This document shows, piece by piece, positions 44,581 through 64,000 of a stretch of 64,000 nt of DNA. Position 1 is the stretch's first letter. Every line of letters starts with the position of its first letter. Made by a program: the position numbers and the translations under genes. The stretch comes from a virus: positions 29,236-93,235 of IMG/VR virus record IMGVR_UViG_3300030002_000003. One strand, given 5' to 3'. The notes beneath the pieces were generated by a model. The model was not told the DNA's origin. It ran no database searches and saw only the letters and a program-made list of their open reading frames with translations.

Positions 44581-44618
44581 GATTAAATTGATTTTAATTG
44601 TTAATGTTATTTTAAAAC

Positions 44619-44670
44619 CCTACCAGGGCTAATTGAATAGACGTGCGGCTCTCGCTCACGACCTGGTAGG
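44619..44670 (-). ncRNA. long-stem structured element
   Basis: CCTACCAGG (44619-44627) pairs with CCTGGTAGG (44662-44670) around 34 bases that hold a GC-rich inner hairpin (GTG…CAC). It lies just before the leader of the gene at 44580. One of several comparable elements between minus-strand genes; possible terminator or processing hairpin. Confidence 0.5.
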
Positions 44671-44812
44671 TACGTTCTAAATTATGCAGACATTAAGCCT
44701 ACGTAATTGTTGATTTGGATTGTGTTGTTGCCAGTTAATTAGCGTGTGCAGTCCTATCTGGTTCATCTTATGCCGCTGTCAAATCCAGGCAGCCCCTTAT
44801 GGTTTTTTATAA

Positions 44813-44875
44813 GGAGTGGAGCTGGAGGGGATCGAACCCTCGTCCAAACGGCGAATCCGCAGCCTACGGGCCGTA
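44813..44875 (-). ncRNA. tRNA/tmRNA 3'-end-like sequence
   Basis: Minus strand: GGACGAGGGTTCGATCCC, then CTCCAGCTCCACTCC. The T arm GAGGG TTCGATC CCCTC plus CAGCTCCAC closely resembles the 3' end of bacterial tmRNA (ssrA), but there is no GGAGCTG or GGGGCTG 5' partner before the adjacent gene, so no complete tmRNA or tRNA is possible here. It may be a captured host ssrA end (attachment-site type) or a tRNA-like processing element. Confidence 0.4.
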
Positions 44876-45358
44876 CTATTTTACTATTTCTATGTAGAAA
44901 TTAGCATTAATGTCTGTTGTTAGGAATCTATGCACTTGCAATGACGGTAATAATCTTACCTCCATTATTTTGTGCTCTAGTGAAAAACCTGTCAATTCAA
45001 CACGTTTCCCCCATAGACTCTGTCTGCTTTCCATTGTTGGTCCGATTAGCATATCGTAAAGTTCCTTTTCAACACTTCCTCCTCGTCTTTTAGACAAATG
45101 AATATGTACTGACTTTACTCTGTTTAGCCTCTTTTCCAACAATATTAAGTTGATTCTTAATAATCTTTCTTGTTGAGATAATCCTCTAAGAGAGACTCTG
45201 GTACCTGGATTGCATGAATCCCAGTTTGCATCTACGAAGCTACTTATCGTTTCTTCTTGTAAATGCAGCATTAGCGGCCTTATAGCGGCTATTGCGTCTT
45301 GTTTGTTATCTGCTTCACCGATCAAAGTGATGGCGATCTGTTTTTGATCTTTTGTCAT
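44876..45358 (-). CDS. early accessory hypothetical protein
   Basis: 160 residues, soluble. N-terminal helices, Arg/Lys-rich middle (LSKRRGGSVEKE), beta-rich C-terminus (FLTTDINANFYIEIVK). No motif recognised. Two AATCAAT boxes lie upstream of the start. Stop TAG abuts the tmRNA-like sequence. Confidence 0.65.
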   Translation of the reverse strand: MTKDQKQIAITLIGEADNKQDAIAAIRPLMLHLQEETISSFVDANWDSCNPGTRVSLRGLSQQERLLRINLILLEKRLNRVKSVHIHLSKRRGGSVEKELYDMLIGPTMESRQSLWGKRVELTGFSLEHKIMEVRLLPSLQVHRFLTTDINANFYIEIVK

Positions 45359-60877: not shown

Positions 60878-63800
60878 ATGATTAATTTTAATAAAAAGAT
60901 AATCAACCCAAACAAGTTTAGAACACCGTGCATGCATTTCCAGCAGCACGGTGTTTACTGTTTCTATCCACATGGTACTACAGAGTACTTGAATTTTTGG
61001 GAAAAGGAGTCAGACTATTGTATAAACGGGTTTACTTCAGCGGACGGAGATTGGATAAGTGGTTATAACTACTGGTATCTAAACTACTGTCCTATTCTGC
61101 GTTTAGTGGAGTTCGAGTATAAAGATAAGCATGGTAATATAAAGAAACGTAGAGAGAAGACTAGAGAGTTTCCAGACTTCTATGACTACGACTACTATTA
61201 CTTTTTAGGCGTAGATGAAGCTGAAGAAGAAGGTAAGCATATGGTCGTTTTAAAGGCCCGTGGTAAAGGCTTCTCATTCAAGGGTTCTGCAATGCTAGTT
61301 AGGAATTTCTATCACGTACCAGAGTCTAAATCATACGCTATAGCCTCTGAATCAGAGTACTTAGTAAGGGATGGTATATTATCTAAGGCTTGGGACCTAA
61401 TGGACTTTGTAGATGAACATACTGCATGGGCTAAGAAGAGACAAGCAGTTAATACTAAGATCCATAAGAGAGCGTCTATACTTACTACTGATGCTATGGG
61501 CAATAAGATAGAGGTAGGGTATAAATCAGAGATAATAGGAGTTACGCTTAAGAATGATGCCAACAAGGCTCGTGGTAAACGTGGTAAATTAATACTATTT
61601 GAAGAAGCCGGTTCATTTAAAGATATTCTACAAGCATGGCAAATTGCTAGACCTTCTGTAGAGGAAGATGGTATTGCCTTTGGATTGATGATTGCATTTG
61701 GTACTGGTGGTGATGAAGCTAGTAGATTCGATGGACTAAAAGAACTATTCTATAATCCATCTGGCTACAATGTAAAAGCATTCCCTAATATATGGGATGA
61801 TGGAGCATCTGGGAATACATGTGCATTCTTTGTTCCAGTATACGCGAATATGTCTGTACTTAGCCCTGACGGTAAACGTCTATTCATGGATAAGTATGGT
61901 AATACTATTCGTGATAAAGCAATAGATTATTCGCTAGAACAAAGACAAAGAGTAATAGATGGATCGTCTGACTCTAGAGCGATAGATAGATATATAGCAG
62001 AGAATCCTATAACGCCTCAGGAGGCTGTTTTAGAGCTCACAGGGAACATATTTCCCAAGAAAGAACTAATGATCCAGCTAGCATCTTTGCGTACGAATAA
62101 GAAGCTCCAGAACTTTAAACAGGTGGGTGATTTAAACTTTATCAATGGCGAGTTGATGTGGACGCCTAAAAAGAATGGAGATATAACCAAATATCCATTA
62201 GGAAAGGATGATGCGCATACGGGATCTATAGTAATATGGGAACACCCAGTTAAAGATGCGCCACATGCATTATATATAGCAGGCTGTCTTACTCCAGGAG
62301 AAAAAGTGTTGACGGAAGAGGGATTGATGAATGTAGAGGACGTAAGTCGATCTAGGCTAGTAGATATAGATGGTAATTATGTAAATCCTAAAGCGTTGTT
62401 GAGATACGAAAAAGAAGATGAAGATATATATAAGATAAGGGTATCTAATACGTATAGGGCGACTACATTTACTAAAGAGCACCCAATATACTCATCCAAA
62501 CACATATTAAATAAACAGAATATGGTTGACGAGAGTTTATTTAATTTCGAGTTTAATAAGGCATCAAGTATAAATGTTGGCGACTGGGTTAAGTACCCAA
62601 ATCTGTATTATAATGGCGATGATAAGGCGAATTCTGATGATGTAAACAATCTGAGGTGGCTCACTGGATTATGGCTTGGAGATGGCTGGACAAAAGGCAA
62701 TCGCATATACATAGCATTTGATATTGCCAATGTGGCTCAAATAGATAGACTCAAGGACTATGTAATAAATGGATTAAAGTCTACATTCAGCCAAAGGATA
62801 AGAAATAATTCTATTGAGTTCTCATTTTATCAAAAAACAGTAGCGTTCTATTTTAATTATTTCTATGGTAAATATGCTCATGGAAAAAAGATTACAGAGC
62901 TTTCTAAAAGATCTTTTAACAATGAAGAGAAGGCGAATTTAATTGCTGGCTATTTAGATTCTGATGGATGTGTTTGCATTGATAAAAGGGGCTATTATTC
63001 AATGGAGTTCGTTAGCTGTAATTTAGATTTGATAGAATCATTTCACGATCTAGCGTTCTCTATTGGACTTGTCGGTAATGTATCTAAATTAAGGAGTGCT
63101 GGAAAATACAATATAGATGGACGCTCTGGAGATCAAAAGGAAGCATATCATCTTAGATTTGGACATAACGACACTATCAAATTTGCAGAGATGCTTAACT
63201 TTGATAGTAGGACTAAATTATCTGTTATAGATAGGACTAATATAAAGACCACTAGGAATAGGCCAAAATCAGGATGTTTTCTTAGTTCAGATATGAAATA
63301 TATCTACTTTCAAATAAAAGATATTGATCATAGTAAATACACCGGTACTGTATATAATTTTGAAACAGATACCCACACATTCTGCTCCTATCATGTACCT
63401 ACACATAACTGTGACCCATATGACCACGATAAGGCTGGCACTAACTCATTAGGGTCTACATTCATATACAAGCGATTTCAGAACTTTGAATCGTATTATG
63501 ATATGCTAGTTGCTGAATATACTGGTAGACCTGATACTGCAGAAGACTATTACGAGAATGTTCGCAAGCTTCTAATGTACTATAATGCTAGGCTTCTATA
63601 TGAAAATGAGCGTAAAGGCATATTCCCTTACTTTACTCAAAAGCATTGTGATTACTTACTAGCAGATCAGCCAGATATTATAAATGATATTATTGGCAAG
63701 TCTACGGTTCAACGCAGGAAGGGTATTCACATGAATGTCCAGATCAAGGATTACGGAGAAGGGCTTATAAAAGAATGGCTAAATGAAGAGTTTGCTCCAG

Positions 63801-64000
63801 GAAAGAAGAACTTAACAAAGATAATGTCAGAAGCACTACTAGAAGAACTTATACAGTACAATACTAAAGGAAACTTCGATAGGGTAATAGCACTGATAAT
63901 GGTAATGATATACAGGCTTCAAATGCATAATACATATGTAAAGAAGCGTGATTCAGAATCCAAAAAGATTAACTTATTTGATAAGCCACTATTCTCTAAA
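60878..64000 (+). CDS. terL: large terminase subunit (TerL) with intein, 3' end outside window
   Basis: The frame is open for 1,041 codons to the window edge; an in-frame TAA at 60857 fixes the start at 60878. ATPase part: MVVLKARGKGFSFKGS (Walker A-like, Lys130), later GKLILFEEAGS (Walker B with Glu), and LMIAFGTGG coupling segment. The nuclease part begins at LYIAG|CDPYDHDKAG, whose Asp is the first metal ligand of the RNase H-like fold. A 375-residue intein (62285-63409) interrupts the gene exactly between Gly and Cys there. TerL cuts concatemers and drives packaging with the portal. Gene order after this point should lead to portal and capsid genes beyond the window. Confidence 0.93.
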   Translation, partial: MINFNKKIINPNKFRTPCMHFQQHGVYCFYPHGTTEYLNFWEKESDYCINGFTSADGDWISGYNYWYLNYCPILRLVEFEYKDKHGNIKKRREKTREFPDFYDYDYYYFLGVDEAEEEGKHMVVLKARGKGFSFKGSAMLVRNFYHVPESKSYAIASESEYLVRDGILSKAWDLMDFVDEHTAWAKKRQAVNTKIHKRASILTTDAMGNKIEVGYKSEIIGVTLKNDANKARGKRGKLILFEEAGSFKDILQAWQIARPSVEEDGIAFGLMIAFGTGGDEASRFDGLKELFYNPSGYNVKAFPNIWDDGASGNTCAFFVPVYANMSVLSPDGKRLFMDKYGNTIRDKAIDYSLEQRQRVIDGSSDSRAIDRYIAENPITPQEAVLELTGNIFPKKELMIQLASLRTNKKLQNFKQVGDLNFINGELMWTPKKNGDITKYPLGKDDAHTGSIVIWEHPVKDAPHALYIAGCLTPGEKVLTEEGLMNVEDVSRSRLVDIDGNYVNPKALLRYEKEDEDIYKIRVSNTYRATTFTKEHPIYSSKHILNKQNMVDESLFNFEFNKASSINVGDWVKYPNLYYNGDDKANSDDVNNLRWLTGLWLGDGWTKGNRIYIAFDIANVAQIDRLKDYVINGLKSTFSQRIRNNSIEFSFYQKTVAFYFNYFYGKYAHGKKITELSKRSFNNEEKANLIAGYLDSDGCVCIDKRGYYSMEFVSCNLDLIESFHDLAFSIGLVGNVSKLRSAGKYNIDGRSGDQKEAYHLRFGHNDTIKFAEMLNFDSRTKLSVIDRTNIKTTRNRPKSGCFLSSDMKYIYFQIKDIDHSKYTGTVYNFETDTHTFCSYHVPTHNCDPYDHDKAGTNSLGSTFIYKRFQNFESYYDMLVAEYTGRPDTAEDYYENVRKLLMYYNARLLYENERKGIFPYFTQKHCDYLLADQPDIINDIIGKSTVQRRKGIHMNVQIKDYGEGLIKEWLNEEFAPGKKNLTKIMSEALLEELIQYNTKGNFDRVIALIMVMIYRLQMHNTYVKKRDSESKKINLFDKPLFSK
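62285..63409 (+). mobile_element. LAGLIDADG intein in TerL
   Basis: 375 codons in frame. Splicing block A: CLTPGEKVLTEEG, starting with Cys1. Block B: TFTKEHPIY with the TxxH motif. Two LAGLIDADG-type helices: LTGLWLGDGW (about 62660-62690) and LIAGYLDSDGC (62939-62971), each with its acidic residue. Blocks F and G: VYNFETDTHTF and VPTHN, followed by Cys of the C-extein. All residues needed for standard class 1 splicing are present, and the homing-endonuclease residues look intact, so the element is probably active both as intein and as mobile element. Confidence 0.92.

Follow-up and report, generated by a model that had tools for sequence, protein, structure and literature searches.

A probable homing intein in nuclease motif I of the large terminase of a crAss-like phage, with a group I intron beside it in relatives

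The large terminase gene (terL) of the crAss-like phage described here contains, at the DNA for nuclease motif I, what is very probably (about 0.87 by our estimate) a mobile class 1 intein with a LAGLIDADG homing endonuclease; that it splices, cuts and homes we infer. A sequence-only reading of this DNA had already proposed an intact homing intein in the nuclease active site of TerL. That it is intact and probably mobile is borne out by relatives with an empty site, conserved residues, the predicted fold and purifying selection on the endonuclease parts of related inteins.

Anatomy of the insert and its site in TerL

The window (the whole stretch analysed, 64,000 nucleotides) corresponds to bases 29236–93235 of a 93,235-base virus record. 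The terL open reading frame starts at 60878 on the + strand, as do all terL features below, and reaches 64000, where it runs off the record end. It is identified as TerL of a crAss-like phage by its match to phrog_6681 (E 9e-141) and its best named relatives are Suoliviridae. The insert (62285–63409) comprises 375 residues, Cys to Asn, in frame between Gly469 and Cys470-Asp471 of TerL. At the 5′ junction GGC (Gly469) is followed by TGT (Cys1, 62285–62287); at the 3′ junction AAC (Asn375) ends at 63409 and TGT GAC (Cys+1 and the catalytic Asp) begins at 63410, so that the flanks read LYIAG / CDPYDHDK. The insertion point and coordinates first proposed, between Gly and Cys-Asp of the first nuclease motif, were exact. 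The N-extein (60878–62284) comprises the ATPase domain and the start of the nuclease domain up to Gly469, as judged by phrog_6681, alignment with intein-free TerLs and the match of an intein-free relative to the T4 gp17 fold. The C-extein (63410–64000) runs from Cys+1 and catalytic Asp471 onward and is cut at the record end. The complete TerL C-terminus is visible in contig L002, which has no differences to the window in 5716 bases; this only near-identical contig may come from the same virus and provides no independent test.

All the residues listed in the sequence-only reading (Cys1, TxxH, the terminal His-Asn, Cys+1 and the Asp of both LAGLIDADG motifs) are present. Splicing block A (CLTPGEKVLTEEG, 62285–62323) opens with Cys1, block B (62471–62482) has the TxxH motif as T63-K-E-H66, block F (VYNFETDTHTF, 63350–63382) contains His364 and block G (63404–63409) is His374-Asn375. 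C1, T63, H66, H364 and N375 are invariant across 29 homologous inteins and H374, D133 and D227 nearly so. The block F residue Asn358, a position occupied by Asp in many inteins, is invariant within the family of the window intein. Between blocks B and F lie two LAGLIDADG motifs, both with their acidic residue: TGLWLGDGW (62663–62689, Asp133 at 62681–62683) and LIAGYLDSDGC (62939–62971, Asp227 at 62963–62965). The Pfam LAGLIDADG_3 model matches intein residues 214–303 with 28.7 bits, above its cutoff of 22.5. The curated splicing models score below their cutoffs [Intein_splicing 17.3 versus 35.8 bits; TIGR01445 (NCBIfam) 19.3 versus 24.5 bits], which are search aids and no defining property of inteins.

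The AlphaFold2 model of the intein (pLDDT 93.6) has a predicted Hint fold, and its closest structures are PI-SceI (the yeast VMA intein, E 1.8e-17), the archaeal VMA intein TliVMA and PI-PfuI. These best structural matches likewise combine the Hint fold with a LAGLIDADG endonuclease, but they come from other host genes, differ in size and, where the structures align, are ~15% identical in sequence to the window intein. Predicted fold and residues (Cys1 and Cys+1 as nucleophiles, TxxH in block B, C-terminal His-Asn) together place the insert among the class 1 inteins that carry a LAGLIDADG endonuclease. A random open reading frame is ruled out by the conservation.

The position of the insert within TerL was located on a model of the intein-free relative L011 (pLDDT 82), whose top match is T4 gp17 (E 1.5e-14) and whose best matches are nearly all large terminases; searching solved structures with the TerL sequence gave chance-level matches only, although the fold search did find gp17. 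The insertion point falls at the end of a predicted strand (residues 464–471), between Gly469 and Cys470. Asp471, Glu534 and Asp626 are invariant in 25 TerLs and, by order and fold, we take them to be the three-acid nuclease site known from gp17. Lying at the strand end before Asp471, the intein would therefore part the first catalytic Asp from its strand. The suggestion that TerL is inactive until splicing is thus a fair one for the nuclease; it does not extend to the ATPase domain, which is uninterrupted.

TerL would be translated as a single precursor, from which the intein would excise itself by attack of Cys1, transfer to Cys+1 and cyclization of Asn375, joining Gly469 to Cys470 and restoring the strand with catalytic Asp471. 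The endonuclease would cut the uninterrupted site in intein-free terL genes of co-infecting phages, and repair would copy the intein in. Such a site would be a good target, being highly conserved in DNA and protein and in a position where imprecise removal would destroy packaging.

Distribution and movement of the intein

The uninterrupted motif is recognizable in 64 of the 80 nearest TerLs from one IMG/VR scan, and 55 of those have Cys at +1; this Cys is thus native to TerL and is used by the intein. GCDPYDHD is uninterrupted in relatives whose TerL is 81% identical to that of the window, so the host protein exists without the in-frame insert. L011, with an empty site, and L141, with a filled one, have TerLs that agree at 97% of 688 residues; to the window TerL they are 81% and 82% identical, respectively. 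Comparing TerLs with and without the insert, the check that had been proposed, thus favours an intein, and in none of the relatives' TerLs do the intein residues appear as part of the normal fold.

An intein profile scan found 51 relatives, of which 50 were read, all at the homologous motif I point (for L138 the aligner placed the 3′ boundary slightly off). The intein-bearing TerLs include some in which CDSYDQD, CDSIDGD or CDPSRG replaces CDPYDHD. In cr118_1 (Besingivirus coli, Suoliviridae) a homologous intein occupies the same point; TerL plus intein is 56% identical to the window and the intein alone 37%. One same-site relative, L095 (3001–4109), has a length that is not a multiple of three and three TAA codons in frame, and is either a decaying copy or an assembly error. 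Different inteins are found elsewhere in Suoliviridae TerLs: before CITPQEA in cr56_1, and at two nearby points in the ATPase GTGG region in cr53_1 and Dulem virus 42 (TerL loci L006 959–4033, L007 959–4138 and L008 1–3320).

The window intein belongs to another subfamily than the inteins found in the TerLs nearest to its own. On the TerL tree, the window falls in a group with five TerLs bearing that other subfamily together with an intron (SH-aLRT 98); in the intein tree the window intein, on a long branch (0.58), groups with those of L092, L137 and L093 (100/100). It is 37% identical to the intein of the nearest TerL relative, L055 (TerL 82%), and 62% identical to that of L092, whose TerL is 59% identical. 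The AU test rejects a tree in which the window intein is grouped with the inteins of its TerL sisters (p 7e-34), and likewise one in which the window TerL is grouped with the TerLs of the intein's relatives (p 5.5e-5). Since both trees reject a shared history, the window intein has moved horizontally. Sliding DNA identity gave no clear converted tract around the window intein, which points to a donor that is unsampled or an event that is old.

A splicing intein with a dead endonuclease is a common late stage of the homing cycle, and the window intein could have reached it, being inherited now only vertically. Its long branch would fit this, as would the related intein of L137, where DSN replaces DSD (Asp to Asn) in the second motif; given L137, not every copy among the related inteins may be active. 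Both Asp residues are, however, kept in the window and in nearly all relatives, and dN/dS is 0.04–0.20 in the middle, endonuclease-bearing part of related intein pairs, which fits selection for a working enzyme. We therefore consider a dead endonuclease unlikely, though a real contender. The intein could also be a regulatory switch, in which splicing is held until a late or stress signal and the TerL nuclease becomes active only at packaging. The interruption of the first nuclease motif would suit such a role, and inteins of phages and bacteria have been proposed to splice conditionally (PMC5050341). Yet TerLs that are 97–100% identical exist with and without the insert, a pattern that a mobile element would produce but a conserved switch would not, and in the window's lineage one intein has been exchanged for another. 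Patchy presence and exchange imply that packaging control is independent of the intein, so the control of packaging by splicing that had been thought conceivable is unsupported and a switch, very improbable to us, is rejected as the main reading. That this TerL family has the insert as an ordinary domain and never removes it can be dismissed almost with certainty: its open frame apart, most relatives have no insert at the exact point, the insert parts the catalytic Asp from its strand, and the intein fold and residues are present.

The adjoining group I intron of related phages

In several relatives, among them cr131_1 and cr7_1, the TerL frame breaks directly after the intein, at TGY GAC CCG T; the window itself has no such interruption. 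The stretch between TGY GAC CCG T and AYGAYCAY is 223–273 nt long in the relatives that have it, which leaves no room for an endonuclease gene. An alignment of 15 copies supports a group I core that spans P3 to P9 and in which P3 and P7 cross: both sides have changed in 25 of 51 pairs, 99.3% of cells are paired and none of 500 shuffles scores as high, with one of five pairs covarying in P7 itself. The exon end CCCGU can pair with a guide GCGGG or GCGGU, the intron follows the U, and a terminal G is present in 17/17 delimited introns. The covariation identifies the element, at the level of predicted structure, as an ORF-less group I intron. Rfam, searched with two terL copies up to E 1, gave no match; its group I model serves as a search aid, and the structural features of group I are present. 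Many viral contigs (L163, L175, L188, L203 and others) have introns with the same core outside terL motif I, so the terL intron is part of a wider family, which Rfam at E 1 did not name in those two terL copies. In cr131_1 and cr7_1 the annotated TerL stops shortly past the intein and the remaining nuclease domain is unannotated (L004 4060–4302, L005 3606–3849), because the intron was not recognized. TerL, a common marker gene for crAss-like phages, is thus often split.

The intron lies downstream of the same-site intein, their insertion points being 10 bp apart. Distinct alleles number 22 with the intein only, 19 with intein and intron, four with the intron only (L161, L170, L182 and L213) and 134 empty, counts that come from separate, biased scans and whose proportions mean little. 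Identical TerL segments (265/265 and 240/240 residues) are found in L128 (both elements), L060 (empty) and L161 (intron only). L123 (both) and L182 (intron only) have one difference in 265 TerL residues and DNA flanks that are 97–99% identical, and L125 (both) and L133 (intein only) have none in 220 residues. The allele state of any single contig may be an assembly error; taken together, these sequences indicate that intein and intron both come and go precisely. The codons GAC CCG are present in 23/23 intron-bearing alleles, compared with 1/22 intein-only and 23/134 empty ones. A reverse transcriptase gene (RVT_1, E 2e-18; phrog_1423) lies just upstream of the intron-bearing terL in L182 (633–1889).

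Judged from these alleles, intein and intron compete for terL motif I, which would be a double homing site. The intein endonuclease would be the nearest candidate for moving the adjoining ORF-less intron. One account that joins these observations, possible but tentative and well short of even odds, is that the LAGLIDADG intein and the ORF-less group I intron 10 bp from it make up a splicing cassette of two layers (RNA, then protein) in which the intein endonuclease moves both by co-conversion and the intron hitch-hikes. Each insertion would split the target, so that an intron-only or intein-only allele would be protected from the other element, and the window phage would represent a lineage whose resident cassette or empty site was replaced by a foreign intein. 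The intron may instead have been moved independently by a free-standing endonuclease and share the site with the intein by chance, to which we give a little less than an even chance. The four intron-only alleles are in line with this, as are homing endonuclease genes adjoining terL in cr56_1, cr115_1 and crAss001 and the collaborative homing by free-standing endonucleases known elsewhere (PMC2814812). However, no HNH, GIY-YIG or LAGLIDADG gene was found among the neighbours tested at L055, L182 and L212, and the intein is also present in 19 of the 23 distinct intron-bearing alleles, in a sampling that is not random.

Relation to known inteins and homing sites

In the sections considered here of the survey by Yutin et al. 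(2021; PMC7886860), TerL of delta-group crAss-like phages typically has an intein, and the worked example is a TerL with two Hint-Hop inteins and a changed code. The window intein has gene and phage group in common with these and is an additional member of a set already reported there; those sections name neither the nuclease-motif point nor an adjoining intron. What is new seems to lie in the relatives, where an intron 10 nt from the intein makes a double homing site. The mycobacteriophage TerL inteins (TerL1-a to -e, TerL6-f; Kelley et al., 2016; PMC5050341) likewise have homing endonucleases and occupy functional motifs of the large terminase, and some have been shown to splice and cut. They are all in the ATPase domain, in contrast to the window intein at the nuclease catalytic motif.

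That a gene can contain both introns and inteins has long been known, for example from nrdE of phage SPbeta (PMC3653736). Haloarchaea, like the window's relatives, have a conserved gene with two closely spaced homing elements; there the two are active inteins, and each interfered with the homing of its neighbour (PMC10643990). The phages differ from the haloarchaeal pair in combining an ORF-less group I intron with an intein, 10 bp apart, with all four occupancy states in close relatives; such an intein–intron double site was not found in the open-licence papers searched. The crAss-like phages thus offer a natural system in which one essential gene occurs empty, with the intein only, with the intron only and with both, sometimes within identical TerL segments, and the coexistence of these states makes competition and cooperation between homing elements directly testable.

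Elsewhere in the window, a permuted tmRNA gene lies on the − strand at 44591–44908. It matches Rfam RF04321 at 44682–44864 (55.7 bits, cutoff 47) and was called independently by ARAGORN, with the tag GNNTIQINNYVGLMSA.
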